From: Dyella amyloliquefaciens
GTDB taxonomy: Bacteria; Pseudomonadota; Gammaproteobacteria; Xanthomonadales; Rhodanobacteraceae
NCBI RefSeq assembly: GCF_004296575.1
Contig: NZ_SAYT01000001.1
Span: 490,906-554,905, forward strand
Length of the DNA stretch: 64,000 bases
Direction of reading: 5' to 3'
Shown here: positions 10,550 through 55,349 of the stretch, piece after piece
How the letters are laid out: each line of letters opens with the position of its first letter
How positions within the stretch are numbered: position 1 is the first letter of the stretch
Notes under the pieces: model-generated
What the model saw: the letters and a program-made list of their open reading frames with translations, nothing else
What the model was told of the DNA's origin: nothing
The model's database searches: none
Translations under genes and position numbers: made by a program

Positions 10550-11039
10550 GTAGGAGCGCACCCAGTGCGCGATGGGTCCGTCGAGCCCCATCCATGGCTA
10601 TGCGAACGCTGCTGTTGTGCGAGCCGTAGCTCCCTCTCCCTCCAGCGACCCGAAGGTAGTCCCTGTGGGAGAGAGGGCTGGGGAGAGGGTGCGGGTCTTG
10701 CCCTGATCCCCAGGTAACAGGGCGCCGGCCTCTGGTTGCCGTGTCTCCGCCAGCTTGCCGCTTACGCAGCGGGCGTTTCGATCCCCTGCCGGCGCTCGAG
10801 TCACTTTTCTTTTGCTGGCCCAAAGGAAAAGTAACCCAAAGAAAATGGCCTCAAGAGCTGGCAGCGATATGAAGGGAAAAGCTCTGGAGGTTCCGGAGTC
10901 CGGATTGCGACCGCCTCCGCCAATAGCGAGCGGCTACACCGCAACGCGCCATGACGCTGAGGACTTAAAGCAGTTTCGTTGTTCGCCCCGGTCCATCACT
11001 TCTCCCTCTCCCCTCCGGGGAGAGGGCTGGGGTGAGGGG
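10550..11039. repeat. Intergenic repeat cluster 1 (R1, R2 with R5, R3, R2)
   Basis: This fills the gene-free stretch between aceE and the ElaB-like gene. In order: an unpaired R1 arm (10550-10573), an R2 palindrome interrupted by an R5 unit (10631-10694), an R3 unit (about 10737-10985) with CACTTTTCTTTTGCTGG, AAAAGTAACCCAAAGAAAA and CTACACCGCAACGCGCCAT, and a second R2 palindrome with GGGGTGAGGGG tail (11004-11039). The R3 plus R2 part matches 52545-52833 in the same orientation over about 290 bp, with only scattered mismatches by eye. No coding function is credible. Confidence 0.85.
10646..10670 (-). repeat. R5 25-bp unit inside an R2 palindrome
   Basis: Minus-strand copy, beginning TCCCACAGGGACTACC on the minus strand. 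It splits an R2 palindrome whose flanks (CCCTCTCCCTCC and GAGAGGGCTGGG) would otherwise be contiguous, as in the uninterrupted R2 copy at 52453. Confidence 0.7.
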
Positions 11040-11127
11040 CCAACCTTGCGACAGACCATGTTCGAAGAATGCTCTGCCCGACACACCGTCCTATCCCCAT
11101 TCCACTGGCGTCGCACAGCGAATCCAT

Positions 11128-11155
11128 AAAAAACCCGCCTCTCGGCGGGTTTTTT
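11128..11155 (-). terminator. Bidirectional rho-independent terminator after the ElaB-like gene
   Basis: A perfect 12-bp stem, AAAAAACCCGCC (11128-11139) with GGCGGGTTTTTT (11144-11155), and a TCTC loop. It begins 22 bp beyond the stop codon of the minus-strand gene and has U-tracts in both directions. Confidence 0.9.
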
Positions 11156-11176
11156 CATCGCGCGCAACAAACCACC

Positions 11177-11512
11177 TCAATCCTCATCCTGATTGCGGAA
11201 CAAATGCCGCAACAGGAAAAACGCTCCCACCGTGCCCGCCACGATCGCGGTGGTCGCCACCGGGTGTCGCGATACCTGGCGGCGCAGCCGGCGATATTGA
11301 TAGTTCGCCTCGTCCGCGAAATCCTCCGCGGCGTGGCCGATGCGGCGCGCATAAGTGTTGCGATTGCGTCCGAAGCGGCGGCGCGCGTCGCGCCCGCGTT
11401 CGATCAGGTCGTCCGCGCGGTCCGACGCTTCGCCGGCATAGTGTCGGATGCGTTCGCCCACCCGGTCGCGGACGCCATTGACGGTATTTTCGATGTCGTA
11501 GGGTCGGCCCAT
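11177..11512 (-). CDS. ElaB/YqjD/DUF883-like membrane-anchored protein
   Basis: A 111-residue protein with a helical, charged N-terminal two thirds (MGRPYDIENTVNGVRDRV to about residue 85, rich in Arg, Asp and Glu) and one C-terminal membrane segment (ATTAIVAGTVGAFFLLRHLF) ending in an acidic tail. This is the layout of ElaB/YqjD-type proteins, which sit in the inner membrane and in E. coli can bind ribosomes in stationary phase. Assignment is by layout and composition, not by a conserved motif. The start at 11512 follows a GAGGAGCACGCC sequence on the minus strand; the longer frame to 11575 has no support. It ends in a strong terminator. Confidence 0.65.
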   Translation of the reverse strand: MGRPYDIENTVNGVRDRVGERIRHYAGEASDRADDLIERGRDARRRFGRNRNTYARRIGHAAEDFADEANYQYRRLRRQVSRHPVATTAIVAGTVGAFFLLRHLFRNQDED

Positions 11513-11588
11513 GGCGTGCTCCTCGCAGAATGAAGGGTCACGTTGCCAGCGCTCACGTGAGTGACACGTAAACATTGGCGTGTTCCGT

Positions 11589-12791
11589 TCATCCGGATGA
11601 CGGCGTGGAGCGGTCGTCGCGACCTTGTGCCTCCAGCATCCGCGCCAGAGTGCGCCGGAACGGAGGCGTGGCCTGGGCCGCTCGCAGCAGGGCGGTGCGC
11701 GCCACGCGGGCGGGCAGCCGGTCGTCGGTGTAGAGCTTCACGATGGCCTGCGTGGCGAAATACAGCGGCAGCGTAGCGACGCGGTGCGCGCGCTCGTAAC
11801 GCTGGAGCACGCGGGGCGAGGCGAAGTCCTGGCCGGCGGCGTGTGCGCGGCGAATCTGGCCCGCGAGGGTATCCACGCTGAGCAGGCCGAGATTGAAGCC
11901 ATGCGCGGTCACCGGGTGCATGCCTACGGCGGCGTCGCCGATCAGCGCGAGATGCGGTCCGATGAAACGGTGCGCATAGGTGGCCACCAGCGGATAGGTG
12001 TGGCGCGTACTGGTCAGGCTCATGCTGCCGAAGCGGCCATCGAAGCGCCTGCGCAGGTCCTCGTTGAACTGCTCGTCGTCGAGCGCCATCACTGACTTCA
12101 TCGCGTGGCCCGGCAAGGTCAGCACCACCGACGCCTCGCCGCTGTGCAGCGGCAGCAGCGCGAGGGTCTGGCCGTGGTCGAACCATTCCAGTGCTTCGCC
12201 GCCGTGCGGCTTCTCCAGCGCCATGCGGCAGACCAGCATGGTCTTGCCGAAGTCGTGCATGTCGACCGAGATGCCGGCATCGCGGCGCAACGACGAAAAG
12301 CGGCTGTCGGCGGCGACCACCAGACGCGCGACGACGGTGGAGCCGTCGGCGAGTTGCAGGTGCGGCATGCCATCGGACAGCGACACGGCGCTCACGGCGG
12401 TATCGGTCACCACGGTGATGCGTGGCTCCTGATCGACACAGGCGTAGGCCGCGCGACGAATGCGGTCGTTGGGCACGAGGAAACCCAGCTCGGCGTCGCC
12501 GGTGCCGGTGGGCAGCACGCTGAGGCCATGCAGGGACTGGCCGTTGAGCACGCGTGCGGCGCGTAGCGGCGAGACATCAGTGTCGCTGAGGCGATCCCAG
12601 ATGCCCAGGGTGCGCAGGATGCGCATCGAGCGCCGGGTCAGCGCGATCTCGCGTCCGTCGAAGGCAGGTTCGCGCAGGGCGGCGAGCGGTTGCCGCTCGA
12701 TCACCATGATGCTGAGGCCGGTATCGGCGAGTGCGCGGGCAAAACACAGACCGGCTGGGCCGGCTCCAACCACCACGATATCGACATTCAT
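11589..12791 (-). CDS. FAD-dependent ubiquinone-biosynthesis-type hydroxylase (UbiH/COQ6 family, possibly UbiM)
   Basis: A 400-residue flavin monooxygenase. Seen: the Rossmann motif VVVGAGPAGL at residues 6-15, the DG-type motif LVVAADSRFSSLR, and the FAD-ribityl motif LIGDAAVGMHPVTAHGFNLGL near residue 280. Enzymes of this family hydroxylate the ubiquinone ring. The MHPVTAHGFNLG variant resembles the UbiM subgroup (C5 and neighbouring positions), but this sub-assignment is from memory and less sure than the family. The start at 12791 puts the Rossmann fold at the N terminus (MNVDIVVVGAG). Neighbours on the same strand are an MFS exporter upstream and the ElaB-like gene downstream; no obvious operon partner. 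Confidence 0.8.
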   Translation of the reverse strand: MNVDIVVVGAGPAGLCFARALADTGLSIMVIERQPLAALREPAFDGREIALTRRSMRILRTLGIWDRLSDTDVSPLRAARVLNGQSLHGLSVLPTGTGDAELGFLVPNDRIRRAAYACVDQEPRITVVTDTAVSAVSLSDGMPHLQLADGSTVVARLVVAADSRFSSLRRDAGISVDMHDFGKTMLVCRMALEKPHGGEALEWFDHGQTLALLPLHSGEASVVLTLPGHAMKSVMALDDEQFNEDLRRRFDGRFGSMSLTSTRHTYPLVATYAHRFIGPHLALIGDAAVGMHPVTAHGFNLGLLSVDTLAGQIRRAHAAGQDFASPRVLQRYERAHRVATLPLYFATQAIVKLYTDDRLPARVARTALLRAAQATPPFRRTLARMLEAQGRDDRSTPSSG

Positions 12792-13002
12792 GCGGGGAAG
12801 ACCATCCGTGCAGAGGCGATGAGCCTGCACATGCTAGAAAGTCCCCCACGGGCGGCCATGACGTCCGTCAAGCAACAGGGCCATAGCGACGCAGCTGAGC
12901 CACGCCTGTTCGCGTGTCAAACGGGTTGCGGTTGCTTCCGTACCATGAGTTAGCTGGCGGATGCGCGGCAAGAAAGCCAGCGTGGCCGGGAGCCTGCCAT
13001 CC

Positions 13003-14253
13003 TCAAGGTGTCGAGCGTACCGGCTCCGCATGAAGTCGTTGCCGTCGGCGCAGCGTGGGGAACATCCCCATCCACAACGCCACCACCACCAGCGTGCCGA
13101 TGCCGCCGATCACGGTGGCGTTCACTGCGCCCATCCAGGCCGCCAGCATGCCGGACTCGAATTCGCCGAGCTGGTTCGACGTGTTGATGAAGATCGCGTT
13201 CACCGCACTGACGCGGCCGCGCATGTCGTCGGGTGTATCCAGCTGCACGAGCGCGCCGCGAATCACCATGCTCACCATGTCGAAGGCGCCCAGCGCGAAC
13301 AGCGCTACCAGCGACAGCCACAACGTGGTGGAAACCGCGAATACCAGCGTCGCCACACCGAAGCCGGCCACCGAAGCAAACATGATCGGGCCCACGCGCC
13401 GTTCCATATTGTGCCGGGCCAGCCATAGCGACATCAGCAGGGCGCCCACGGCGGGCGCCGCGCGCAGCAGGCCCAGGCCCCACGGGCCGGTATGCAGCAC
13501 GTCCTTGGCAAAGATCGGCAGCAGCGCGGTTGCGCCACCGAGCAGCACGGCGAACAGGTCCAGCGAGATCACGCCGAGCACGTCGGGACGTGCCCGGATG
13601 AAGTGCACGCCGGCAAACAAGGTCTTCAGCGTGGCCGGCTCACGTTTGGGCTGTGCCTGTTCGTAGCGGAGGTGCGCCATCAACATCACGGCGACGAGAT
13701 AGAGCAGGGCGCATACGGCGTAGACCACGCCGGGACCCGCCACATAAAGCAGGCCGCCGATCGCGGGTCCCATGATCATCGCGGCCTGTCCTGCCGAGGC
13801 ACTGGCCGCCATCGCGCGCGGAAGCACGATGGTAGGCACCAGCGCAGGCAGCATCGACTGCATCGCCGGAAATTCGAAAGCCTTGGCCACGCCGATCACG
13901 AACACCAGCGCGAGTATCGTGAACTCGTGCGCGAGGTGTATGAAGCTGATCGCGGCCAGTACCGCAATCGCGAGCATGTCCACGATCTGCCCCAGCAGCA
14001 CGATGCGACGGCGCTCGAACTGATCCGCCACGTGCCCCGCCGGCAGGGCCAGCAGCACGGAGGGAATGAACTGCACGAGGCCGATCAGGCCCAGGTCGAG
14101 TGCACGGCCGGTGATGGCATAGACCTGCCAGCCCACCGCGACGGACAGCATCTGGAAGCCGAAGCCCGAACAGATGCGTGCGAACCAGAACTGTACGAAC
14201 GCCGGATGCGAGCGCAGCGCATCCGCCGGAATGGGCGCAGGAGTGGATGACAT
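13003..14253 (-). CDS. MFS transporter, EntS/MFS_3-like exporter
   Basis: A 416-residue integral membrane protein with about 12 hydrophobic segments. After the first helix there is SVAVGWQVYAITGRALDLGL and VLLALPAGHVADQFERRRI, the A-loop signature of major facilitator transporters (GHVADQFERRR). The overall pattern resembles the enterobactin-exporter group MFS_3. The substrate is unknown, and no siderophore synthesis genes are nearby. The ATG at 14253 lies behind a GGAACCTCC sequence on the minus strand. About 210 bp separate it from the FAD hydroxylase downstream, so cotranscription is uncertain. Confidence 0.85.
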   Translation of the reverse strand: MSSTPAPIPADALRSHPAFVQFWFARICSGFGFQMLSVAVGWQVYAITGRALDLGLIGLVQFIPSVLLALPAGHVADQFERRRIVLLGQIVDMLAIAVLAAISFIHLAHEFTILALVFVIGVAKAFEFPAMQSMLPALVPTIVLPRAMAASASAGQAAMIMGPAIGGLLYVAGPGVVYAVCALLYLVAVMLMAHLRYEQAQPKREPATLKTLFAGVHFIRARPDVLGVISLDLFAVLLGGATALLPIFAKDVLHTGPWGLGLLRAAPAVGALLMSLWLARHNMERRVGPIMFASVAGFGVATLVFAVSTTLWLSLVALFALGAFDMVSMVIRGALVQLDTPDDMRGRVSAVNAIFINTSNQLGEFESGMLAAWMGAVNATVIGGIGTLVVVALWMGMFPTLRRRQRLHAEPVRSTP

Positions 14254-14403
14254 GGAGGTTCCTTCAGGATCCCGAGCATTATCGGTAGCTGAAGCGTCGG
14301 GGCAAGGTTCAGGCGTTTCACGCCGGTGTTCCCCGCCCTTTACCTGATCTTGGCGCTGCCGGCCCTAGCGTGAAACGTGACGATACCGGCTGTGAGGTTC
14401 CCC

Positions 14404-14706
14404 ATGGGTCAGTTTGCCCAACAGGTCTACACCGATCCTGTCCATATCCGTCACCTGGAGTCGCTGGTGCGGCAATTGCCAACCAATGGCCATGTGGTGC
14501 TGCTGCTCAACGACGGCAGCATTTATGACGGCGTCGTATGTGAGCGCCCGAACGTGCAGGTGTTTCGCGACGGCGAGGAGAAGGAAGGCATCAACGGGGT
14601 GGTTCGCCTGGAGCGACCCGACGTGCCCGAGTGGAGTTGCTACGTGTGGCTGGGCGATATACGGCGCGTGGAGCACCTGGACTCCACCATGGGCAGCGAG
14701 ACGTGA
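14404..14706 (+). CDS. DUF3247 family protein (variant Sm-like fold)
   Basis: A 100-residue protein matching the DUF3247 family, which is largely confined to Xanthomonadales; a Xanthomonas member has been shown to have a variant Sm-like fold. Seen: VYTDPVHIRHLESLVRQLP, then the beta-rich core GHVVLLLNDGSIYDGVVCERPNVQVFRD and a C-terminal VWLGDIRRVEHLD. Sm-like folds often bind RNA, but no function is established for this group. The ATG at 14404 (MGQFAQQVYTD) is preferred over 14377 by family length. The gene stands alone between an MFS gene and an acyltransferase gene that are both on the minus strand. Confidence 0.8.
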   Translation: MGQFAQQVYTDPVHIRHLESLVRQLPTNGHVVLLLNDGSIYDGVVCERPNVQVFRDGEEKEGINGVVRLERPDVPEWSCYVWLGDIRRVEHLDSTMGSET

Positions 14707-14727
14707 GGACCTCGCTGCCCGGTCGTG

Positions 14728-15936
14728 TCAGGCCTGCTGGGTGGATTCCGTGAGATTGAAGGTTTCCTCCGCACGATGGCGCGGCGTAGCGTCGAGCCCG
14801 AACAGCGGGCGCAACCAGCGCGCGCGCCGTATGGCGAATTCATGCAGCAGCGCGCAACCGCCCACCGTGCAGGCGAGCACCAGCAGCGGTTCTGTCACCG
14901 GGCCAACGCGCAGCGGGATCAGCCAGTAAGCCGCGGCCAGCATGATGCTCTGGTGCAGCACGTACCAAGGGAACACCGCCTCGCGTGCATACGGCAGCCA
15001 ACGATACGGGCGGTTGAGGTACTGGTGTCCCCAGCCCAGCACGGCGGCGATGGCGGTCCAGGTATACAGATAATTCAGTACGCGCAGCACTTCGTGCGTC
15101 GCCGCCATGGCGGTCGGGGTCATTGGCGCAACATCCATGAACCGCTCGAGGCCAAGGAAGCCCGCGAAGCACAGCAGTGCCGTGGCGAGTGAGGCGCGAC
15201 GCAGCCGAGCGAGTTCCTGCCACGGGCCATCGCGCGTGCCGAGCAGATAGCCATAGAAGAACACCGTGCCGTACTGGGCGTGCGCATGCCAGTCATGGAA
15301 CAGCGCGTGGTTCTGCGGAAAGCGGCTGGCGAGCAAGGCCGAATAGAACATCAGCGGAACAGCGGGCAATACCAGCAAGGCCACGCCATGCACACGCCGG
15401 CAGGCGGCGACGGCGCGTTGCCCGAGTGGCGACTCCAGCACCGGTATCAACGCCAGCAGCACCAGCGTGTAGACCCAGACGTAGGGCAGGTACCACAGGT
15501 GGTTCCAGGTGACGCCGAACTGCCAGCCATCGAAGGCGCCGGCGGGCCACGGGCCACCCGTCCAATAACGCAGCAGGAAAGCGCCAAAGCCCGGTGCGAC
15601 CAGCCCGTTGTCCACGCCCTGGACATACGGCTGGATCGGAACCACCACGGCCATGCCGAACACCAGCGGCACCAGCAGCCGCACGGTGCGCTTCCAGGCC
15701 ACGACCGGCAAGGCATGGCGTCCCCTCAGGAAATGGACCGCAAGCCCGGAGATGAGGAAGAGCAGGTCCATCCGCCAGCGGTTCAGGAACAACATCGGGT
15801 ACTGCAGCCAGTCGGCGAGATAGTGGCTCTTGAGGTGGAAGCCCCAGTCGCTCACGTAGAGCATGCCCAGGTGGTAAAGAATGAGCAGGCCGAAGGCCAG
15901 GACGCGCAGGGCGTCGATATCGTGGCGGCGGTTCAT
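14728..15936 (-). CDS. Acyltransferase family membrane protein (acyltransferase 3 / OpgC-like)
   Basis: A 402-residue protein with about 10 membrane segments. The N terminus MNRRHDIDALRVLAFGLLILYH carries the conserved DALR motif of acyltransferase 3 proteins, and ISGLAVHFLRGR follows, a variant of the family F(I/L)SG motif. Such proteins transfer acetyl, succinyl or other acyl groups onto sugars, glucans or lipids at the inner membrane; the C-terminal PWYVLHQSIMLAA is also typical. The start at 15936 is set by the DALR motif; the longer frame runs across the divergent promoter region. It is divergent from the LytTR regulator, 153 bp away, which may regulate it (inference). Confidence 0.85.
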   Translation of the reverse strand: MNRRHDIDALRVLAFGLLILYHLGMLYVSDWGFHLKSHYLADWLQYPMLFLNRWRMDLLFLISGLAVHFLRGRHALPVVAWKRTVRLLVPLVFGMAVVVPIQPYVQGVDNGLVAPGFGAFLLRYWTGGPWPAGAFDGWQFGVTWNHLWYLPYVWVYTLVLLALIPVLESPLGQRAVAACRRVHGVALLVLPAVPLMFYSALLASRFPQNHALFHDWHAHAQYGTVFFYGYLLGTRDGPWQELARLRRASLATALLCFAGFLGLERFMDVAPMTPTAMAATHEVLRVLNYLYTWTAIAAVLGWGHQYLNRPYRWLPYAREAVFPWYVLHQSIMLAAAYWLIPLRVGPVTEPLLVLACTVGGCALLHEFAIRRARWLRPLFGLDATPRHRAEETFNLTESTQQA

Positions 15937-16089
15937 GGGCAGGCTCCGGTGGCGGGATGTACCCATCCTCCCCGGCAACCCCGCCGCTGTCCGCCGCCAA
16001 GTGACTGATTGCAGGGGCCCAGGGACGAGTGGCGGGCTGGCAGGGACGAACCTGCGGCACCGGCGCCTCTTCCACGTAGAATCCCGGCC

Positions 16090-16977
16090 ATGACGACACG
16101 GACGGTTTTCGACTATCAGGGATTCCAGCGTTGGCGGCGGCCCTTCGAGGTGGGCTACTGGGTCGTCATGCTCACCGGGAACACCGCCTTCAATGGACTG
16201 GTGTCCTGGTTCGATCATGTCTACCACCGTAGCGGTACCTCAAGTCTGGAGCCCTGGATCTGGGAGGCGAGCAGTAGCCTCGTGCTCCTGGCGCTGGTCC
16301 CCTTCGTGGTGTGGGCGACCCGGCGCTGGCCGCTGCGCTTCGATAGCTGGCGCCAGAGCCTCAAGATGCACGCGCTGCTGACCGTGCCGTTCTGTCTGGT
16401 CCACGTCGGCAGCATGGTCGGCTTGCGAAAACTGGCCTATCTGGCCATGGGCAGCCATTACGACTTCGGCAACGTGCCCGTGGAGCTCTTTTATGAGTAT
16501 CTGAAGGACTTTCGCACTTACCTGTCGTTTGTGGCGGTGATTTCCTTCTACGGCTTCTTCGTGCGCCGCCTGCAGGGCGAGGCCAGCCTGCTCGCCGAGC
16601 CGGACGAGGGGCCGCCGGTGGAGCCGGTGGACCGGCCGGAGCGCTTCCTGGTGCGCAAGCTCGGCAAGGAATTCCTGGTGGCCGCGCGCGACATCGAATG
16701 GCTGCAGGCGTCGGGCAACTACGTGAACCTGCACGTGCGCGGCCGCGATTACCCGCTGCGGGCGACCATGGCAGGTATCGAAGACCGGCTCGATCCAGCA
16801 CGTTTTGTGCGCGTGCATCGCAGCTACCTGATCAACCTTGACCATCTGGCGGAAATCGAGCCGCTGGAGACCGGTGATGCCCGCCTCACCATGCGCGATG
16901 GCGCCAGCATTCCCTGCAGCCGTCGCTACCGCACGCAGCTGCGCGAGCGCTTCGGCGACGCCCCCGTCGGCGCATGA
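16090..16977 (+). CDS. LytTR-family membrane-associated transcriptional regulator
   Basis: A 295-residue protein. The N-terminal half holds about four membrane segments (for example WVVMLTGNTAFNGLVSWF, SSSLVLLALVPFVVWAT, LLTVPFCLVHVGSMVGL, LSFVAVISFYGFFV). From about residue 185 there is a LytTR DNA-binding domain with the hallmarks RFLVRKLGKEFLVAARDIEWLQASGNYVNL and FVRVHRSYLINLDHL. It lacks a receiver domain, so it belongs to the membrane-bound LytTR type rather than to classical response regulators. The ATG at 16090 is the first in a sensible context; upstream in-frame sequence is non-coding. The divergent acyltransferase gene is the obvious candidate target, which is inference from position. 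Confidence 0.88.
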   Translation: MTTRTVFDYQGFQRWRRPFEVGYWVVMLTGNTAFNGLVSWFDHVYHRSGTSSLEPWIWEASSSLVLLALVPFVVWATRRWPLRFDSWRQSLKMHALLTVPFCLVHVGSMVGLRKLAYLAMGSHYDFGNVPVELFYEYLKDFRTYLSFVAVISFYGFFVRRLQGEASLLAEPDEGPPVEPVDRPERFLVRKLGKEFLVAARDIEWLQASGNYVNLHVRGRDYPLRATMAGIEDRLDPARFVRVHRSYLINLDHLAEIEPLETGDARLTMRDGASIPCSRRYRTQLRERFGDAPVGA

Positions 16978-16993
16978 CGCCCGACGATCCCCT

Positions 16994-17117
16994 TGTAGGA
17001 GCGCACCCAGTGCGCGAACAGCCGACAAGGCGCTGACGCGGTCACCGCGTCCATGCGCAAAGGTTGGCGCGCGGCCGCGACGAGTCTCCGCGATCGCGCA
17101 CTGGGTGCGCTCCTGCA
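16994..17117. repeat. R1 inverted pair between the LytTR gene and a lipoprotein gene
   Basis: A forward R1 arm (16994-17017, TGTAGGAGCGCACCCAGTGC...) faces a reverse arm (17094-17117, TCGCGCACTGGGTGCGCTCC...), with a single mismatch, around a 76-base spacer that itself contains GC-rich complementary bits. In RNA this makes a 24-bp stem 17 bp after the LytTR stop codon. Confidence 0.8.
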
Positions 17118-17196
17118 GGGAAGGGCAACCGGGAGTTGCGCTAGCCCGCCCCGTCGTTCCACTCTAAACGCCTTCCCTTCATCGGATGCCCCGCCC

Positions 17197-17931: not shown

Positions 17932-17991
17932 TGCGTCCACGCGCACCGCATTCGTGCGTTGTGACATGCATCCCTTCATGAGGTCGCGGTA

Positions 17992-18435: not shown

Positions 18436-18777
18436 TGGTTTAGGGCGCTGTCGAGCTAGGCAGCGCCGTCGCTAGATTGGCCCCTCACCCCGGCCCTCTC
18501 CCCGGAGGGGAGAGGGAGAAGTGGGATAGCTCGCGGAAATTCTTCGTCGTGCGCCAGTGTCGCTTTAAGTCCTCAGTCCCACGGCGCGTTGCGGTGTAGC
18601 CGCGCCCTTCGAGGTAGAACGTCCCTGATTCGACTTGTGCCAGTCGTCCGACGCTTCTATTCCGCGTACCGCTATGAGCCCTGGCTCTTAAGGCCATTTT
18701 CTTTGGGTTACTTTTCTTTTGGGCCAGCAAAAGAAAAGTGACTCGAGCTCCGGCAGGAGATCGAAACGCCCGCTGCG

Positions 18778-18802
18778 TCCCACAGGGACTAGCTTTGCGT
18801 CG
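18778..18802 (+). repeat. R5 25-bp unit inside R3
   Basis: Copy beginning TCCCACAGGGACTAGCTT, placed between CCCGCTGCG and TAGGCGGCA. The R3 copy at 52545 has these flanks joined directly (read on its reverse strand), so the unit looks like a clean insertion. Copy 55325-55349 sits at the same site in another R3 copy. Confidence 0.7.
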
Positions 18803-18895
18803 TAGGCGGCACGTTGGCGGTGGCGCATCTATTGCGGAATAGGGTCCAAGTTCTGCGGCTTGGGGCAAGAGCCGCACCCTCTCCCCAACCCTCTC

Positions 18896-18920
18896 TCCCA
18901 CAGGGACTACCTTCGGGTCG
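18896..18920 (+). repeat. R5 25-bp unit inside R2
   Basis: Copy beginning TCCCACAGGGACTACC. It lies between CCCTCTC and CCGGAGGGAGAGG; the R2 copy at 55467-55504 has the flanks as CCCTCTCCCGGAGGGAGAGG without the unit. Confidence 0.7.
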
Positions 18921-20418: not shown

Positions 20419-20449
20419 GCATTCCCCCATGGCCTGTGTGCATCCAGCT

Positions 20450-21449: not shown

Positions 21450-21468
21450 GCATCCTGAGGACAGGAGC

Positions 21469-44039: not shown

Positions 44040-44174
44040 GTAGGAGCGCACCCAGTGCGCGATCACAAGGCCGCGCCATCGCGTGAGCCATCCCTGTGGG
44101 AGCGCACCCTGTGCGCGACACCTGACGAAGCGAAACACCGCATCGCCCAGTCGCGCACAGGGTGCGCTCCCACA
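44040..44174. repeat. R1 cluster upstream of dinB: single arm plus inverted pair
   Basis: A forward arm of the CCCAGT subtype (about 44040-44062), followed by an inverted pair of the CCCTGT subtype: TGTGGGAGCGCACCCTGTGC... (44095-44118) facing TCGCGCACAGGGTGCGCTCC... (44151-44174) around a 32-base loop. The two arms of the pair are perfectly complementary. Confidence 0.85.
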
Positions 44175-47081: not shown

Positions 47082-47170
47082 TCTTGCGTCGTATGCCGTC
47101 GCCTCGTTCAGCAAGGCAGCCTTCAGACGAGACAGGCATACTGCCGCGACTTCTCCGCACCGAGTTGCCG

Positions 47171-49360
47171 ATGAGACGGATCGCCCCACTAGCCGTGTGT
47201 TGCCTGCTGGCCCTTGCGGGTTGCCAGAAGGCTGCCGATACGGACCGGGCCGACCTCAGTCGCGTCGCCGCCACGCCGCTGCCCACGACCGCCAAGGCCC
47301 CTGCGACCACCGCGCCGACCACGCAGACCGCGCTCGATCACGTGGACCGCGACGGCGCGCCGATCACCGTGGCCGGCATGTCGTTGCAGCGCTATGTGTT
47401 CCAGCCCTCGCCACAGCCGCAGCTCACCGTATCGCTCGACAAGGGCGAGTGGGACTGGTCCAAGGAAGGTTCGCTGCATGTGGACATGCAGAACGCCATG
47501 CCGTGGGCCATCACGCTCACCGTCGACATCGACGGCGCCAAGGAAGGGCAGCACCTGCACGCGACGGTCGGCATCCCGGCCGGTCCGCCGCAGACCCTGA
47601 TCATTCCGCTGCATGCCGCCTCGCCGAGGGCAATGGGCATGCAGGCCGGTCCGCCGATGCCCTACGTGGCGGGCGGCAAGCGCATCTATGTGGCCACCAC
47701 GGTGGAAGGTTCGCTCGATCTCGCCCATGTGAAGGCGGTGCGACTCGGCATGCCTGCACCCACGGCGGCGCAGACCGTGCTGTTCGGCAAGCTCGACACC
47801 TCGCGTGGCGACCATGACCTGCGCGACGCCTATACCGGCATCGTCGACGCCTGGGGCCAGTACACGCGCGGCCAGTGGCCGGGCAAGGTCGATTCCGACG
47901 ACGCGCTTCGTGGCGTGCGACACAAGGGCAAGCCCGTCCCGGTCGGCCCGGCCGTCGCGCACAAGGGCTTCGACCGCTTCGGTGGCCGCACCGACGTGCC
48001 TGCCTTCAAGGCCAGTGGCTGGTTCCGCGCCGAGCAGCGCGACGGCCGCTGGCATCTGGTGACGCCCGAAGGCCATGCCTTCTTCTCGCTGGGCGTGAAC
48101 GTGGTCGATGACGACGGTGGCCGCACCTACATCGAAGGCCGCGAGTTCATGTTCAAGGACCTGCCGCGCAACAGCGGCCGCTGGGCGCCGTTCTTCGGCA
48201 CCCAGGGCAAGCCGTCCGGCGACCAGTCGGCATCGGCAGGCATCGGCTACAACCATGGCCGCTGGTTCGACTATTACTCGGCCAACCTGTTCCTGGCCGA
48301 CGGCCATCATTGGCGCGAGGCCTGGCGTTCGCGCACGGTGGACCGCCTGGAGCACTGGGGCTTCAACACGCTGGGCAACTGGAGCGACGACGCGCTGACG
48401 CAGACGCACCACCTGGCGTACACGCGCTCGGTCAACATCGCCGGCGTGTTCGGCAATGTCTCCAGTGGCTACGACTACTGGGGCCGCATGCCCGATCCGT
48501 TCGATCCGCGCTTCGCCCAGGCGGCCGACGCGGCGGCGGCGCAGGCCACCAAGGAAGTGCGCGACGACCCGTGGCTGCTGGGTTACTTCGCCGACAACGA
48601 GCTGGCGTGGGCCGGGCAGGGGCCGCAGGGTCGCTGGGGCCTCGCGCAGGGTACGCTGCGTGGCGAGGCGCGCAGTCCGGCCAAGCAGGCCTTCATCGAG
48701 GTGCTGAAGAAGAAGTACGGCACGCCGGCGAAGCTCGCCGCGGCCTGGGGCATCACGCTGGATTCGTGGGACGCGCTGCAGGCGACCAACTACGCCGCGC
48801 CCGATCCGAACGAAGCACACCCTGCCATTGCCGACGATTACAGTGCATGGCTGCGCCAGTACGCGGACCAGTACTTCCGCACCGTCGCGCAGGCCATCCA
48901 CAAGCACGACCCGCATCACCTGTTCCTCGGCGGCCGCTTCGCCGTGCACACCCCCGAAGCCGTGGCCTCCTGCGCGCAGTATTGCGACGTGGTGAGCTTC
49001 AACGCTTACGCCGACGTGCCCGAGCACGCCTTCGACGCAGCCGCCTTCGCCAAGCTGGGCAAGCCCGCGCTGATCACCGAATTCCACTTTGGCTCCGACG
49101 ACCGCGGCCCGTTCGCCAAGGGCGTGGTGCCGGTATGGAACGAGCAGCAGCGCGGCGAAGCGTATGCGCGCTACGTGGCAGCCGCGGCGGCCGACCCGGT
49201 CATCGTGGGCGTGCACTGGTTCCAGTACGTGGACCAACCGATCACCGGGCGCCTGCTCGATGGCGAGAACGCGCATATCGGCCTGGTCGCGATCACCGAC
49301 AAGCCGTTCAAGAGCTTCGTCGACGCGGTACGCGAGGCGAACCGCAACACGGGTTACTGA
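47171..49360 (+). CDS. Agarase-like glycoside hydrolase lipoprotein (GH-A clan, GH50-like)
   Basis: A 729-residue lipoprotein: MRRIAPLAVCCLLALAGCQKAAD with lipobox LAGC. Residues about 50-250 look like an agarase-type carbohydrate-binding domain (QLTVSLDKGEWDWSKEGSLHVDMQN). From about 270 there is a TIM-barrel glycosidase: GRWHLVTPEGHAFFSLGVNVV, GYFADNELAW with the probable acid/base Glu477, and LITEFHFGSDDRG with the probable nucleophile Glu637. The pattern resembles beta-agarase-like enzymes, but the true glycan is unknown. An alternative start at 47078 overlaps the permease stop and would add 31 residues before the lipoprotein signal, so I prefer 47171. Confidence 0.8.
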   Translation: MRRIAPLAVCCLLALAGCQKAADTDRADLSRVAATPLPTTAKAPATTAPTTQTALDHVDRDGAPITVAGMSLQRYVFQPSPQPQLTVSLDKGEWDWSKEGSLHVDMQNAMPWAITLTVDIDGAKEGQHLHATVGIPAGPPQTLIIPLHAASPRAMGMQAGPPMPYVAGGKRIYVATTVEGSLDLAHVKAVRLGMPAPTAAQTVLFGKLDTSRGDHDLRDAYTGIVDAWGQYTRGQWPGKVDSDDALRGVRHKGKPVPVGPAVAHKGFDRFGGRTDVPAFKASGWFRAEQRDGRWHLVTPEGHAFFSLGVNVVDDDGGRTYIEGREFMFKDLPRNSGRWAPFFGTQGKPSGDQSASAGIGYNHGRWFDYYSANLFLADGHHWREAWRSRTVDRLEHWGFNTLGNWSDDALTQTHHLAYTRSVNIAGVFGNVSSGYDYWGRMPDPFDPRFAQAADAAAAQATKEVRDDPWLLGYFADNELAWAGQGPQGRWGLAQGTLRGEARSPAKQAFIEVLKKKYGTPAKLAAAWGITLDSWDALQATNYAAPDPNEAHPAIADDYSAWLRQYADQYFRTVAQAIHKHDPHHLFLGGRFAVHTPEAVASCAQYCDVVSFNAYADVPEHAFDAAAFAKLGKPALITEFHFGSDDRGPFAKGVVPVWNEQQRGEAYARYVAAAAADPVIVGVHWFQYVDQPITGRLLDGENAHIGLVAITDKPFKSFVDAVREANRNTGY

Positions 49361-49390
49361 CGACCGTCTTCCGTGACGCGGGCTGTTACT

Positions 49391-49919
49391 CCCTCTCCCT
49401 TCGGGAGAGGGTTGGGGAGAGGGTGCGGTTCTCGCCGCGGGCCTCAACGCTGTCGTATGGATCGGGGCCCGGAGCCCCGTGATTTTCGTCTTCGGCAGTT
49501 ACGCTGCCGCCAGCTTGCTCGCCTGCCGCGGGCTTCCGAGCCGCTGCCGCGGCCCGGGTCACTTTCTCTTGCTTGCCCAAGTCCCACAGGGATTAGCTTC
49601 GCGTCAGAAAGTAACCAAAGAGAACGGCACCCCGCGTGGCGCTGTCTGGGCCTTCGGCCCAGCCAGTCCGTGAGGGGCGACCGGGCTTTTCGACCGGGCT
49701 CCTGCCCGGACGAAAAGTGCCCGACGTCCTGTCGGGCACCCCTGCGGGGCCTGATCGTCCACCCCTCACCGCCACACAGGGGAGGTTTGTAGGCTCGTGC
49801 CGCTGCGCGGCACATCGCGTTGAAGAGTGCTGCTGCTCGTTGTGGGAGCGCACCCTGTGCGCGACACCTACGGAGCGAGGCATCCCGCACCCCCGTCGCG
49901 CACAGGGTGCGCTCCCACA
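49391..49919. repeat. Intergenic repeat cluster 3 (R2, R5, R4, R1 pair)
   Basis: It fills the 580-bp gap between the glycosidase and the M1 aminopeptidase. In order: an R2 palindrome (49391-49428), an R3-related CACTTTCTCTTGCTTGCC stretch (about 49502-49620) split by an R5 unit (49582-49606), an R4 unit (about 49630-49822) with GTGCCCGACGTCCTGTCGGGCAC and GGGGAGGTTTGTAGGCTCG, and a perfect R1 inverted pair of the CCCTGT subtype (49841-49864 with 49896-49919). 49502-49822 is present again in inverted orientation at 52920-53217. Confidence 0.85.
49582..49606 (+). repeat. R5 25-bp unit inside the R4-associated repeat
   Basis: Copy beginning TCCCACAGGGATTAGC. It interrupts CTTGCTTGCCCAA and GAAAGTAACCAAAG; the inverted sister copy at 52920-53217 reads straight through this site as CTTGCTCAAAGAAAAGTAACC. 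Confidence 0.7.
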
Positions 49920-49940
49920 GTAAAGAAAGAGAGGGCGCCC

Positions 49941-51677
49941 TTACTTCGCCGCCTTCGCCTTCTTCGCCGCCTGTTCCTTCTTCCACTGCTGGTATTCGTT
50001 GAAGTGCGGCATGTCACGCAGCACCTTGGTGTGCGGATCGATGATCACCAGCGTGCCTGCCGGTGCATCCACGCTGCCATTGCCGTCGGTCATCGGCAGC
50101 GTCACCACCTTGTCGCCCACCTGCACTTCCACCGGCATCGGGAACGGCTTGTCGTGCGGTACCTGCCAGTGCAGGCGCAGCGTGTTGCCGTCTTGGTGCG
50201 TCTCCAGCTTCGGCAACGCGGACTCGTACAGGTACACGTCGAAGAACCAGCGCATGTCGCGACCGGTTACCTGGTTCACGATGTCGATGTACTCGCGCGT
50301 GCTGGAGTAGTGCGGGGTGAAGTTGCCCGGCTTCGGGTCCGGACGGCCGTATACCAGTCGGCGCGTGCTGTCGAAAAACGCCTGGTCGCCGATCAGCTGG
50401 CGCAGCGTGTGCAACATCAGCGAGCCCTTGTAGTAGATGTCGTTGCCCGGGCCGTGATCGGCGTCGTACACCTCGTGCTCGAACTGGCTACGGCCGGCCA
50501 CGATCGGGTAGGCGTTGCGCACCATCGAACGCTCGTCCTGCAGCATCGAGAAGTACGGCATGTCGCCGTAGAGGTACTGGCCGTACAGCGGCTGCATGTA
50601 GGTGCCGAAGCCCTCATGGATCCACATGTCGTCCCAGTCGGCATTGGTCACCTGGTTGCCGAACCACTCGTGCGAGAACTCATGCTGCAGCAGCCAGTCG
50701 AAGCCGTACTGGCTGCGCGCGTAGCCGTTGCCGTAGGCGTTGATGGTCTGGTGTTCCATGCCCAGGTGCGGGGTTTCCACCACGCCCATCTTTTCATCGC
50801 CGAACGGGTAGGGGCCGATCTCCTGCTCGAAGAAGTCCAGCATGCGCGGGAACTCGCTGAACAGCTGCTTGGCCTGCGCCTCATGGCCGCGCAGGTACCA
50901 CATCTGCATCGGAATCGTGTTGCCGTAGCGGCTGTGGTAATCGCCCTTCACCACGTCAAACGGACCGATGTTGATCGAGATCGCATACGTGGTCGGGTGC
51001 TTCGCGCGCCAGTGGTAGGTGTGCGTGGCGCCATGCTCCTTGATGTCCACCAGCACGCCGTTGCCCGGCGCTGCGAGCGACTTCGGTACGGTGACATAGG
51101 TGTCCACCAGGTCCGGCTTGCCCATCGGGTGGTCGATGCACGGCCAGAACAGGTCGCAGCCTTCGCCCTCCACCGCACTGGCGATCCACGGCTGGCCGTC
51201 CTCGGTCTTGGACCACACGAAGCCACCGTCCCACGGCGCCTTCTTCGCCACGTGCGGCTTGCCGCCGTAGTGGATCTCCACCGTGGTCTTGCCGCCCTTG
51301 GCCAGCGGCTTGGGCAGATGGATGCTCAGGCGGCCATCGGGATTGCTCCACTGGTCCGCCGCCAGCACCTTGCCGTCCACCGACACGCGGCTGATCGCGT
51401 AGTTGTGGTCCAGGTCGAGCAGCAGCGTGTCGGTCGCTTCGCGCGCGCTGAAGGTGAGCTTGGCGGCCACATCCAGGCTCTGCTGTTCGATATCGACGCC
51501 GAAATGCAGCTCCGCATGATCGAAGTGCAGCCGTGCCTGCTCCGCCGGCATGGTGCCGCCGGAACGTACCGTCTGCTCACTGAGCGGTGGCTGCGTGGCG
51601 GGCTTGGCGTCCTCGGCATGGGCGAAGGAAGCAAGCGCGGCGCACAGGGCGAGGGAGAGCAGGCGCGGTGTCGACAT
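49941..51677 (-). CDS. M1-family metallo-aminopeptidase, exported
   Basis: A 578-residue zinc peptidase of family M1. Signal peptide: MSTPRLLSLALCAALASFAHAED. Zinc site: HEFSHEWFGN (His332, Glu333, His336) and WIHEGFGTY (Glu355), the classical HExxH-18-E spacing. The substrate N terminus-binding motif is LGMEHQT, a variant of the usual G-x-M-E-N. It probably trims peptides in the periplasm or outside. It lacks the large C-terminal helical domain of PepN, so it is the shorter, leukotriene-hydrolase-like form; the C terminus ends in a Lys/Ala-rich tail (KKEQAAKKAKAAK). The start at 51677 is fixed by the signal peptide. It lies between inverted R4 repeats. Confidence 0.9.
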   Translation of the reverse strand: MSTPRLLSLALCAALASFAHAEDAKPATQPPLSEQTVRSGGTMPAEQARLHFDHAELHFGVDIEQQSLDVAAKLTFSAREATDTLLLDLDHNYAISRVSVDGKVLAADQWSNPDGRLSIHLPKPLAKGGKTTVEIHYGGKPHVAKKAPWDGGFVWSKTEDGQPWIASAVEGEGCDLFWPCIDHPMGKPDLVDTYVTVPKSLAAPGNGVLVDIKEHGATHTYHWRAKHPTTYAISINIGPFDVVKGDYHSRYGNTIPMQMWYLRGHEAQAKQLFSEFPRMLDFFEQEIGPYPFGDEKMGVVETPHLGMEHQTINAYGNGYARSQYGFDWLLQHEFSHEWFGNQVTNADWDDMWIHEGFGTYMQPLYGQYLYGDMPYFSMLQDERSMVRNAYPIVAGRSQFEHEVYDADHGPGNDIYYKGSLMLHTLRQLIGDQAFFDSTRRLVYGRPDPKPGNFTPHYSSTREYIDIVNQVTGRDMRWFFDVYLYESALPKLETHQDGNTLRLHWQVPHDKPFPMPVEVQVGDKVVTLPMTDGNGSVDAPAGTLVIIDPHTKVLRDMPHFNEYQQWKKEQAAKKAKAAK

Positions 51678-51828
51678 GGACGATCCCCTGGTTTTGGTCA
51701 AACCCGCAGGATGACAGCCCGGACGCGCGGGCGGCATCGCCGAAAGTCATGGGTCAGCTTCGCGCGAGCTTGTGGCCGGCCGCTCGCGGCGCGCATGCTT
51801 GGTCCGCCCCGTGGACGAGGGATGGCTC

Positions 51829-52428
51829 ATGGACCTGCTGCAGAACCTGGCGTTGGCGGGCGGCCTGTCCTGGGCCAGCGGCTTCCGCCTCTACGCCACC
51901 GTCTTCATCGCCGGCCTGCTGGCGCGACTGGGCTACGTGCACCTGCCCGATGGCCTGAGCATGCTCACCGACACCTGGGTGCTGGTGACCTCAGGCGTGC
52001 TGGCGGTCGGCGAGTTCGTGGCCGACAAGGTGCCCGCGTTCGACAGCGTGTGGGACGCGATCCACACCTTCGTCCGCGTTCCCGCTGGCGCGTTGCTGGC
52101 GTGGGGCGTGTTTCGCGACTCCGGGGCGGGCGCGCAGTTCGCGGCGGCGCTGCTGGGGGGCGCGATTACCTCGGGCACCCATCTGGCGAAGACCGGTGGC
52201 CGTGCGCTGATCAACACCTCACCCGAGCCCTTCAGCAACTGGGGCGCCAGCGCGGGCGAGGACATCTCCTGGCTGGGTGGCATGTATCTGATGTGGCAGC
52301 ACCCGGCGGTCTTCCTGGTGCTGCTGGGGATCTTCGTGTTGTTCCTGGTGTGGTTGGTGCCGAAGATCCTGAGAGGGTTGAGGGCGCTGGCGCGCAGGTT
52401 GCGAGGGGAGCGGGTGTCCCGCGCGTAG
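51829..52428 (+). CDS. DUF4126 domain membrane protein
   Basis: A 199-residue membrane protein with about five hydrophobic segments. MDLLQNLALAGGLSWASGFRLYATVFIAGLLARLG at the N terminus and LVTSGVLAVGEFVADKVPAFDSVWDAIHTFVRVPAGALLAW match DUF4126, a family of unknown function. GAGAQFAAALLGGAITSGTHLAKTGGRALINTSPEPFSNW follows. The ATG at 51829 has a GAGGGATGG sequence upstream. It is divergent from the M1 aminopeptidase, and the C terminus runs close to repeat cluster 4. Confidence 0.85.
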   Translation: MDLLQNLALAGGLSWASGFRLYATVFIAGLLARLGYVHLPDGLSMLTDTWVLVTSGVLAVGEFVADKVPAFDSVWDAIHTFVRVPAGALLAWGVFRDSGAGAQFAAALLGGAITSGTHLAKTGGRALINTSPEPFSNWGASAGEDISWLGGMYLMWQHPAVFLVLLGIFVLFLVWLVPKILRGLRALARRLRGERVSRA

Positions 52429-52452
52429 CGGCGGGGTTCCTATGCTGTTACT

Positions 52453-53370
52453 CCCTCTCCCTCTGGGAGAGGGCTGGGGAGAGGGTGCGGGTCTCGCCCC
52501 AGGCCGCAACGTAAGCAGGGAGCAGAGATTCGGCTTCTGGTCGATGCGATACCGCCAGCTTGCCGCTTACGCAGCGGGCGTTTCGATCGTCTGCCGACGC
52601 TCGAGTCACTTTTCTTTTGCTGGTCCAAAAGAAAAGTAACCCAAAGAAAACGACCTTCAGAGCCAGAGCTGGCAGCACTCCGCAGGGAAAGGCCTTGGAG
52701 GTTCCGGAGCCCGGATTGCGACCGCCTCCGCCGCTAGCGCGCGGCTACACCGCAACGCGCCATAGCGCTGAGGACTTAAAGCCGCGCCCGCTTCGCTCCC
52801 TCTCCCCTCCGGGGAGAGGGCCGGGGTGAGGGGTCAATCTTGCGAGAGCGTGGGAAGCGACGCGAAGTGTCATCGCGCACTAGGTGCGCTCCTACAAAGA
52901 GCAGACCCCACCATCTCCGCAACGCGATGTGCCGCGCAGCGGCACGAGCCTACAAACCTCCCCTGTGTGGCGGTGAGGGGTGGACGATCAGGCCCCGCAG
53001 GGGTGCCCGACAAGGATGTCGGGCACTTTTCGCCCGGGCAGGAGCCCGGTCGAAAAGCCCGGCCGCCCCTCACGGACTGGCTGGGCAAAGCCCAGACAGC
53101 GCCACGCGGGGTGCTCTTTCTTTTGGTTACTTTTCTTTGAGCAAGCAAAGAAAAGTGACTCGGCTGCCGGCAGGCAGTCGAAACGCTCGCCGCGTAGGCG
53201 GCAAGCTGGCGGCAGCACGGCAACCGCAGGCGAAATCCGTTCTCACAAGAGCGATAAGCGTGCAGATCGCGGCGAAAGGCTGTCGCGCACAGGGTGCGCT
53301 CCCACAAAAAGCGCGGGGCTAGCGTGGGGACTGACGCGACGTGTTATCGCGCACTGGGTGCGCTCCTACA
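52453..53370. repeat. Intergenic repeat cluster 4 (R2, R3, R2, R1, R4, R1, R1)
   Basis: It fills about 1 kb between the DUF4126 and M17 aminopeptidase genes, the longest gene-free stretch here. In order: R2 (52453-52490), R3 (about 52545-52790, same orientation as cluster 1), R2 (52798-52833), a reverse R1 arm (52873-52896), an inverted copy of the R4-associated unit (52920-53217), and two reverse R1 arms of different subtype (53283-53306 CCCTGT type, 53347-53370 CCCAGT type). Confidence 0.85.
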
Positions 53371-53452
53371 GGGAGGGCGTGGCGCAGCGCGGATGGATCG
53401 GGCGATGGCAGCGCGCACGAAGCGCACCGCGCATCGCCCCTCGAGAGCCAGA

Positions 53453-54832
53453 TCAGCCCGCGTACTTCTTCTGCAAAAACGCAAAGAACGCCCGCAACCC
53501 CAGCGCCTCACCACCGCGCGGCCGACCCGGCCGATCCGCGTCGTTCCACGCATACGTATCCAGATGCAGCCACGGCGTGTTCTCAGGCACGAAGCGCTCC
53601 AGGTACAGCGCAGCCGTAATCGCGCCCGCATGCCGCGAAGCGCCCGAGTTGGCGATGTCGGCCAGGTACGACTCGAGCATCTTGCGATAAGGACGCCACA
53701 ACGGCAGGCGCCACAGTGGGTCGTTGACCGTGCGGCCGGCGGCGAGCACGCGCTCGGCGGCATCGTCGTTGTTGGCGAACAGGGCCGGCAGGTCCGCGCC
53801 CAGCGCGATGCGCGCGGCGCCGGTGAGCGTGGCGAAATCGATGATCAGTTCCGGCTTCTGCTCGGTCGCGTAAGCCAGCGCATCGCACAGTACCAGGCGG
53901 CCTTCGGCGTCGGTGTTGTCGATTTCCACGGTGATGCCGGCGCGCGTGGTGATCACTTCACCCGGACGCAGGGCCGCGCCGGAGACGGCGTTCTCCACCG
54001 CCGGAATCAGCAGCTGCAGGCGCACCGGCAGCTTTGCCTGCATGATCAGGCCGGCCAGCGCGATCGCATGCGCGGCGCCGCCCATGTCCTTCTTCATCCA
54101 GCGCATGCCGTCGGCGGGCTTGAGGTCGAGGCCGCCGGTGTCGAAGCACACGCCCTTGCCGACCACGGCGATCTTCGGATCGCTGGCCTTGCCCCAGGTG
54201 AGTTCGATCAGGCGCGGCGCGCGATGGCTGGCGCGGCCCACGGCGTGGATGGTGGGGAAGTTGGCTTCAAGCAATTCATCACCCACCCACTCGCGCACCT
54301 TGCCCTTGTGCGCCTTGCCCAGCTGCTTCACCGCGTCGGCGAGATGCTTGGGACCCATGTCCTCGGTGGGCGTGTTGACCATGTCGCGCACCTGCGCGGT
54401 GGCTTCCACCAGCGGTGCGAGCACCTTCAGGTCGGCGGCAGGGATGGCCAGCTTCGCCGGCGCGCGGCGCGCCTTGCGATAGCGGGTGAACTCGTAGGCG
54501 CCCAGCGCCCAGCCCAACGCCGCCTGCAGGCGATCCTTCAGCACGCCCTCGTCGGCGAGGTGATAAGTGGCCTCGGGCAGCGCGCGCGGCATCGCGCCCA
54601 GTGCGCCGAGCGGGTCGGTGGCGTCCACGCCCACCAATACGCGAACCAGCTTGCCGCCTTCATCGGGAATGAGCGCGAACGTGCCCGGTGCCGCTTCGAA
54701 GCCGAACGAACTCAGCCACTGCCGCTGGACGGCGGTGAGGCGGCGTTTGATGGCGGCGAAGTGGGAGGCGTCGGTGGTCTCGATGGCGATGCTTTGGCGA
54801 TCGCTGTTCTTGCGTTCGATGAGAGCGGACAT
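53453..54832 (-). CDS. Leucyl aminopeptidase family (M17)
   Basis: A 459-residue cytosolic-type zinc or manganese aminopeptidase. Catalytic-domain signatures: VVGKGVCFDTGGLDLKPADGMRWMKKDMGGAA with metal-binding Lys and Asp residues and the canonical NTDAEGRL, followed by DFATLTGAARIALG. The N-terminal domain is shorter and less conserved, as in the PepB-like and M17 relatives of about 460 residues. The start at 54832 (MSALIERKNSDRQ) has GGAAATTC upstream on the minus strand. Neighbouring gaps on both sides are repeat clusters. Confidence 0.9.
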   Translation of the reverse strand: MSALIERKNSDRQSIAIETTDASHFAAIKRRLTAVQRQWLSSFGFEAAPGTFALIPDEGGKLVRVLVGVDATDPLGALGAMPRALPEATYHLADEGVLKDRLQAALGWALGAYEFTRYRKARRAPAKLAIPAADLKVLAPLVEATAQVRDMVNTPTEDMGPKHLADAVKQLGKAHKGKVREWVGDELLEANFPTIHAVGRASHRAPRLIELTWGKASDPKIAVVGKGVCFDTGGLDLKPADGMRWMKKDMGGAAHAIALAGLIMQAKLPVRLQLLIPAVENAVSGAALRPGEVITTRAGITVEIDNTDAEGRLVLCDALAYATEQKPELIIDFATLTGAARIALGADLPALFANNDDAAERVLAAGRTVNDPLWRLPLWRPYRKMLESYLADIANSGASRHAGAITAALYLERFVPENTPWLHLDTYAWNDADRPGRPRGGEALGLRAFFAFLQKKYAG

Positions 54833-55272
54833 GAATTTCCTTGCGCGCGGCACCGTGCAGCGCGGAGAGAAGAGGGGTAACCCCAATGATGCGCGCTTTT
54901 GCCGTGCAGGGGGAGGGAGTGAATTGCACTGGCGCAACGGGGCGCTGGATGTGAGGCCGATCGCGCACTGGGTGCGCTCCTACAGTGGCGATAGGTGACG
55001 TTGTCGCGAGCACCCACCCCTCACCCCAGCCCTCTCCCCGAAGGGGAGAGGGAGAAGTGATGGACCGGGGCGGATGGCGAAGCGGCCTTAAGCCCTCAGC
55101 GCATCGGAGAGTTGCGGTGTATCCGTGCCCTATGAGGTAGCACGTCTGTAACTCGGCTTGCCCCAGTCATCTGACGCTTCTATCCCGCATACCGCTATGA
55201 GCTCTGGCTCTTCAGGTCGTTTTTTTTGGGTTACTTTTCTTTTGGACCAGCAAAAGAAAAGTGACTCGAGCG

Positions 55273-55296
55273 TCCCACGGGACTAGCTTCGCGTCG
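55273..55296 (+). repeat. R5 unit inside R3, first copy
   Basis: A 24-base version, TCCCACGGGACTAGCTTC then GCGTCG, between GTGACTCGAGCG and TCGGCAGACG. R3 copy 52545 has these flanks joined directly (GACTCGAGCGTCGGCAGACG when read on its reverse strand). Confidence 0.7.
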
Positions 55297-55324
55297 TCGG
55301 CAGACGATCGAAACGCCCGCCGCG

Positions 55325-55349
55325 TCCCACAGGGACTAGCTTTGCGTCG
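55325..55349 (+). repeat. R5 unit inside R3, second copy
   Basis: A 25-base copy beginning TCCCACAGGGACTAGCTT, between CGCCGCG and TAGGTGGCAC, the same position as in cluster 2 (18778-18802). Confidence 0.7.

Follow-up and report, generated by a model that had tools for sequence, protein, structure and literature searches.

Six copies of a discrete unit of 24-25 bases lie within a 64,000-nucleotide stretch of the Dyella amyloliquefaciens genome (contig NZ_SAYT01000001.1, positions 490,906 to 554,905; the whole stretch is referred to as the window), and comparison of sequences suggests, at a probability of about 0.7, that this unit is a non-autonomous mobile sequence of the small-dispersed-repeat kind that may move as a folded strand. 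An initial annotation of the window had likened the unit to a very small non-autonomous mobile element, a view supported by the gain of an exact block, by filled and empty forms of nine host sites and by the spread of these over two phyla. The six copies that it listed are all present (Table 1). A pattern search of the window recovers five of them, with none expected by chance, and inspection of the sequence shows the sixth, a 24-bp variant at 55273 that reads TCCCACGGGACTAGCTTCGCGTCG. In the source genome, that of a soil bacterium of the Rhodanobacteraceae (Gammaproteobacteria; 4.83 Mb in 17 contigs), the 16-mer with which the unit starts has 59 matches at up to two mismatches compared with 10 for a backwards-read control, and the total is about 60 copies. 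A loose scan of 40 stretches and the window gave 62 rows, one of which, at window position 44080, is a clear chance match.

Table 1. Copies of the unit and empty host junctions in the window.
Feature	Positions	Strand	Basis and remarks
Unit, 25 bp, CC/GG-stem subtype, inside R2 palindrome	10646..10670	-	Pattern search
Unit, 25 bp, TTT-loop subtype, R3 site b (hairpin loop)	18778..18802	+	Pattern search; relatives' R3 at this place has the site empty
Unit, 25 bp, CC/GG-stem subtype, inside R2 palindrome	18896..18920	+	Pattern search
Unit, 25-bp span (24 net versus empty form), GATTA subtype, inside R4 repeat	49581..49605	+	Pattern search
Unit, 24 bp, R3 site a	55273..55296	+	Seen in sequence
Unit, 25 bp, TTT-loop subtype, R3 site b of the R3 copy also filled at 55273	55325..55349	+	Pattern search
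R3 site a, empty, in copy with filled site b	18738..18772	+	Joined-flank match
R3 copy, sites a and b both empty	10757..10804	-	Joined-flank matches (b at 10757, a at 10770)
R3 copy, sites a and b both empty	52562..52609	-	Joined-flank matches (b at 52562, a at 52575)
R3 site b, empty	53179..53202	+	Joined-flank match
R2-type palindrome, empty, 2 mismatches	21..41	-	Joined-flank match
R2 palindrome, empty	49391..49411	-	Joined-flank match
R2 palindrome, empty	52453..52473	-	Joined-flank match
R2 palindrome, empty, exact to joined flanks	55483..55503	+	Joined-flank match

Filled and empty forms were found at nine host sites, seven in Dyella (Gammaproteobacteria) and two in Selenomonas (Bacillota). 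In the window, the sister copies said to lack the unit are confirmed for the R2 and R3 repeats (four empty junctions for R2 and three for each of the R3 sites, a and b), and the copies at 18778 and 55325 do share one R3 site, site b. For the R4 repeat the comparison within the window is weaker than proposed, since the sister at about 53118-53145 is diverged and the window holds no clean empty R4 junction, but clean empty R4 sites are present in other loci, one from the source genome and three from other genomes. In the survey of the nine sites, which covered all loci retrieved by then, the counts for the source genome and for other genomes, respectively, were 11/0 empty and 7/2 filled for R2, 14/17 and 13/1 for R3a, 9/26 and 18/7 for R3b, 1/3 and 5/1 for R4, 10/2 and 4/4 for R4p, 0/8 and 0/1 for the CCGG host, 1/8 and 0/1 for the L070 host, 0/15 and 0/6 for Selenomonas host A (SelA) and 0/9 and 0/6 for Selenomonas host B (SelB); these are not frequencies, because many of the stretches were retrieved for holding a unit. 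A looser form of R2 (R2b), not counted as a separate site, gave 52/56 empty and 8/7 filled. Allowing for flank bases assigned by the pattern, the net insert is 24 or 25 bp at nearly all sites and 26 bp at one, while three R2 rows at 27 bp all derive from one differing left flank. The direct repeat at the junction is at most one base at R2, R4 and SelA, and at R3a and R3b three to four bases (CGTC, CGT) can be assigned to either side. The check for target duplications and for filled and empty pairs called for by the annotation thus returned clean pairs and no constant duplication across the nine sites.

The two Selenomonas hosts were examined in 30 of the 105 loci matching the tag of host A and in 30 of the 70 matching that of host B. 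The empty form of host A reads GGCCTTT^CAACGAGG, with units at the marked point in filled copies, and that of host B CATAGCACCG^CTATGCC, with an exact 24-bp insert when filled. The 24 rows for host A comprise 14 clean empty sites, seven filled by a forward unit, one unrelated sequence and two reverse units (L211 and L223); two of the 20 rows for host B are filled. In host A, forward copies mostly read CACGAGG, one A short of the empty form; the A is kept in L195, L207, L115 and L117, and its absence from one subfamily reads as a later deletion. Both hosts are abundant landing-site families (L194-L253), the tag of host A having 67 matches in one genome (G064) and that of host B 39 in another (G065). 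The reverse unit in L211, of 26 bp and three bases off the usual host A point, is a true reversal, and that in L223 is decayed. Insertion in either orientation, as had been claimed for the window, is seen in Selenomonas; the window shows no switch of orientation, because there the copy at 10646 and its host repeat are inverted as one.

Several different units occupy one and the same site. Counted with strict flanks, there are eight distinct inserts in 11 copies at R3a, eight in 23 at R3b, six in 10 at SelA, four in six at R4p and six in 13 at R2, some of these last differing only by a flanking base. Head-to-tail arrays also occur. One locus (L067) holds a TCCCACAGGG unit followed by four CCCTAAAGG units, and D. 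jiangningensis (G008; L045:1496-1670, L133) has R3 site a filled by seven units repeating every 25 bases, the first of 24 bp and the other six of 25 bp, mixing TTC and TTT loops; this array could serve for strain typing. For such mixed arrays, repeated insertion at unit borders fits better than slippage alone. It would seem rather unlikely that the unit has moved only rarely and that nearly all copies are passengers of larger mobile host repeats. The Dyella host families do show forward matches in one orientation with one subtype dominant (13 of the 23 R3b copies are a single sequence), but the nine host sites, the two phyla, the several subtypes at each site, the reversal and the mixed arrays would together need many separate insertions. 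Since one subtype and one orientation dominate each host family, there have been fewer insertion events than copies and many copies probably spread with their hosts; such passenger spread is compatible with a mobile unit, as the second half of its history.

The full 25-mer (with one two-fold position) is found in 12 stretches of a 257-Gb genome collection, where about 0.001 would be expected by chance: five from Dyella, six from Selenomonas or Selenomonadaceae and one from Butyrivibrio. The seven Bacillota records are metagenome-assembled genomes, and the named isolates are D. jiangningensis and D. silvae. In five of these Bacillota genomes there are three to 17 copies of a 17-base core at up to one mismatch, compared with one match in all for the reversed control. 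Among sampled genomes the exact core occurs in 4 of 398 Bacillota, one of them the search centre itself (reversed control, 2), and in 1 of 398 Pseudomonadota, the source genome (reversed control, 14 by hand count); single matches may thus be due to chance, because the reversed controls match as well. Of the three further Bacillota genomes, one (G426, three of its four copies) and another (G094) are backed by the known host A, and a third (G289, L116) is uncertain. The spread across genomes is patchy. On a plasmid of Chondrocystis (Cyanobacteriota) 28 of 28 bases are identical to a unit of a Selenomonas array, in the 24-mer form, and a second Chondrocystis plasmid carries a diverged copy; phage and plasmid searches gave nothing convincing beyond these two, with no match on a Nostoc plasmid. 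Listings of open-licence PubMed Central (PMC) papers showed no description of these units for either Dyella or Selenomonas, six unit fragments had no text match in the papers searched for them, and in an Rfam search of ten sources the only match at gathering score was a tRNA in L065, giving no known RNA family for the unit.

In viral contigs (IMG/VR) short cores match nine stretches in one scan and 21 in another, and most of these could be due to chance. Four (L078, L080, L081 and L083) were counted as units because they have the first hairpin of the unit, described below, or several copies; the other matches of the nine-stretch scan, which lack that hairpin, were not counted, and L265 and L255 are possible units. 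A phage match (H19, L192) is not a unit. The 7283-bp contig L083 holds four variants, at 2580, 2756, 5083 and 7010, with TTC, TGC and TAC loops; two of them lie at 9-bp hairpins whose arms differ from one hairpin to the other yet stay complementary. In L080, units of the CC/GG subtype at 5003 and 5503 lie at the tip of a 14-bp hairpin, CTTACTTTCTTTGC...GCAAAGAAAGTAAG. This contig is perhaps chromosomal DNA, since a frame of 1107 amino acids near the units presumably encodes an RND-type transporter.

The unit can form a hairpin TCCC-ACA-GGGA, followed by CTA and a second hairpin GC-TTC-GC. Among the 59 variant types scored out of 62 (L192 and Dyella matches without the central motif being left out), the second stem has G-C as its outer pair in 43 and C-G in 14, a compensatory switch, with this pair broken in two; for the inner pair, one type shows T-A and one a break. 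In an alignment of 54 variants, hand-picked from the 62 and partly re-registered, the covariation score is 0.131 versus 0.090 and the percentage paired 90.4 versus 87.7, reached by none of 500 shuffles, although kinship among the sequences can inflate such scores. Left out of the alignment was a variant with a C-C outer pair (L076/L077), which lacks hairpin 1 and is probably a chance match. The opposite strand holds a GCGAAGC mini-hairpin, of a type described as exceptionally stable in passages of PMC10527192, where CGCGAAGCG was used. One-sided stem changes, judged by eye, fit either strand, and RNA and DNA alike. The minus strand of the unit reads DAKLVPVG or DAKLVP, with no stop, in open frames at L072:4033-4332 and L083:3084-5105, frames that may be spurious.

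The nearest known counterparts are the small dispersed repeats (SDRs). Elhai et al. in 2008 (Genome Res. 18:1484) reportedly described eight of these, SDR1-8, of 21-27 nucleotides in Nostoc and its relatives, with mobility said to be inferred from clean insertions, placement inside other repeats and nested or tandem copies, and with SDR4-6 said to keep compact small hairpins through compensatory changes. SDRs are not known outside a group of cyanobacteria. By description, not by sequence, the unit resembles them in its size of 24-25 bp, its clean presence or absence in other repeats, its nested and tandem copies and its compensated hairpins; it differs in occurring in Dyella, Selenomonas and Butyrivibrio, not in cyanobacteria only. 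A module from Nostoc, possibly SDR5, was found in 43 of 72,556 plasmid records, in the Nostocales, and likewise has two hairpins with three-nucleotide loops, in a sequence unlike that of the unit; these records could provide a set with which to compare the unit. According to passages of PMC4390886, SDR5 enters the palindrome HIP1 precisely. Because clean insertion recurs in Dyella and in unrelated rumen bacteria, very small mobile sequences would appear not to be solely cyanobacterial. Miniature inverted-repeat transposable elements (MITEs) are likewise non-autonomous, short and present in many copies, and have terminal inverted repeats around an interior and a target duplication. The unit lacks framing terminal inverted repeats and a constant target duplication and is several times smaller than MITEs; derivation from a MITE or a classical insertion sequence fits poorly with the absence of a constant duplication at the nine sites.

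Repetitive extragenic palindromes (REPs), tagged GTAG or CGTC and moved by RAYT, the Y1 tyrosine transposase, share with the unit their short length, their hairpins and, in some cases, a position inside palindromes, and REPs and REPINs with their RAYTs are the subject of PMC3733652, PMC3116915 and PMC2817692. It is unlikely that the unit is one of them. One strand of the R2 subtype does have GTAG before a TCCC-TGT-GGGA hairpin, the other strand ending in GCGTCG, and the source genome has two Y1_Tnp genes. Nevertheless, none of the 15 Y1_Tnp loci in the genus has a unit in its flanks (about 1.5 kb on each side, less for L183), and Y1_Tnp, present in 11 of 20 genus genomes, does not track the units: one genome (G009) has 20 unit matches and no Y1_Tnp, another (G015) two Y1_Tnp genes and no unit match. 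The tag base is other than the G of GTAG in 43 of the 59 scored variant types and covaries with its partner in stem 2, and the main subtypes have a first stem of 4 bp, where PMC3733652 gives stems of 5-13 bp for GTAG REPs and, for CGTC REPs, stems of 8-9 bp, loops of 4-5 and a CCA tail. The tag of the unit is thus neither conserved nor unpaired, and its copies are single or in direct arrays, in contrast to the inverted pairs of REPINs. A GTAG REP was rejected on the paired tag, the stem length and, in the genus Dyella, the lack of a link to RAYT genes, and a CGTC REP on the stem, loop and tail of the unit sequence.

That the unit is instead an ancestral part of the host repeats, precisely deleted from the shorter copies, is very improbable. 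Deletion between short direct repeats would be possible at R3a (CGTC), but the hosts are unrelated in sequence, empty hosts are abundant in genomes with no detected unit, and direct repeats flanking the R2, R4 and SelA junctions do not exceed one base. Of 20 genus genomes, 19 contain the empty R3b junction at up to one mismatch, with as many as 122 copies; they include all four (G003, G015, G016 and G017) that have no match to a 20-mer of the unit at one mismatch, a search that a distant variant could escape; this argues that the unit was gained, not deleted. The initial annotation had named ancestry followed by deletion, and flanks that fail to join precisely elsewhere, as outcomes that would count against mobility; the first is contradicted by these genomes and by the unit's presence in unrelated hosts and another phylum, the second by the precise joins at nine sites in two phyla. 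At one locus, beside a ferritin-like gene and compared over 420 bases in 19 relatives, R3 site b is filled and site a empty in the source genome, and in D. jiangningensis site a holds the array and site b a unit. In six relatives (G003, G004, G005, G007, G015 and G019) both sites of the R3 are empty, the R3 of G002 is partial and its site b empty, and no R3 copy was seen in the other 11; at this locus G019 carries a unit inside another repeat, of the CCGG type.

Insertions appear to favour the tips of hairpins. For one junction per host in 26 hand-chosen hosts, with random places in the same loci as background, the junction falls in the loop of a stem of 5 bp or longer, or at most two bases from it, in 11 hosts (R2, R3b, CCGG, L048, L070, SelB, L108, L116, L078, L080 and L083) versus 2.3 expected, at a P of about 6e-6 that is too small, since the hosts were hand-chosen and some are perhaps related (R3b, L048 and L070; SelB and L108). 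Stems of at least 7 bp are present in four of the 26 versus 0.35 expected. This test replaced a looser one, in which 17.5% of 120 copies compared with 4.25% of the background reached a score of 6, and a per-copy one, tandem neighbours having been dropped from both. The preference for hairpins is also what strand switching or slippage would give if it rebuilt the block from local sequence, an explanation that is scarcely credible because the same insert recurs in unrelated hosts and phyla and so is not locally templated. With the exact gain of a block without duplication, the hairpin tips, the conserved two-hairpin pattern and the lack of a gene in the unit, a folded single strand joined in trans would account for the insertions. 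A single-stranded copy, of RNA or DNA, would fold into its two hairpins, and an enzyme encoded elsewhere and acting in trans would join it into the exposed tip of a host hairpin while DNA is being replicated or repaired, after which host repeats carrying the unit would spread it further. The strand of the unit relative to replication showed no clear bias by eye in G019, where the origin was not located, and was not used.

The inflated P of the tip test is one of several points that weigh against a mobile unit moved in this way. Fifteen of the 26 hosts, including R3a, R4, R4p, SelA, L040, L050 and L072, fall short of a 5-bp stem. As to the fold, further types of pair are no more numerous than is usual in shuffles (153 of 500 reach their number), sliding the partners by -3 gives four pairs and 11 cells with both-sided changes versus three pairs and seven cells for the structure itself (at 28.7% versus 90.4% paired), and in 16 of 49 hairpin 1 lacks its outermost pair. 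Energy folding was no better than for shuffles in nine folds of unit strands (z-scores -1.3 to 1.5), and the CC/GG subtype is predicted to take a different fold. The different subtypes at one site could partly reflect change in place or gene conversion, and the R3 copies beside the ferritin-like gene could have arrived separately. No joining enzyme was found in a search that covered Y1_Tnp only, and mobility is deduced from comparison.

It is possible, though somewhat short of an even chance, that three phyla harbour the unit as a mobile element in its own right, also outside its cyanobacterial home, gene-less and perhaps helper-less, and copied by a conserved cellular activity able to join folded single strands to the tips of hairpins. 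If so, one of the smallest mobile elements known would insert and spread horizontally by an undescribed route, about 25 bases being near the lower limit for recognition and movement. A sequence common to Gammaproteobacteria and Bacillota, and present in one form on a plasmid of a cyanobacterium, offers a shared testable substrate, and with the numerous empty and filled sites in Dyella gain could be watched and the enzyme sought. The unit would also explain some of the 24-25 bp presence or absence differences inside bacterial repeats. A distinct REP-like repeat of the form GTAGGAGCGCACC..GTGCGCGA is also present in the window, at 10550-10575, 52872-52900 and 53281-53308, the third copy having GTGGG.

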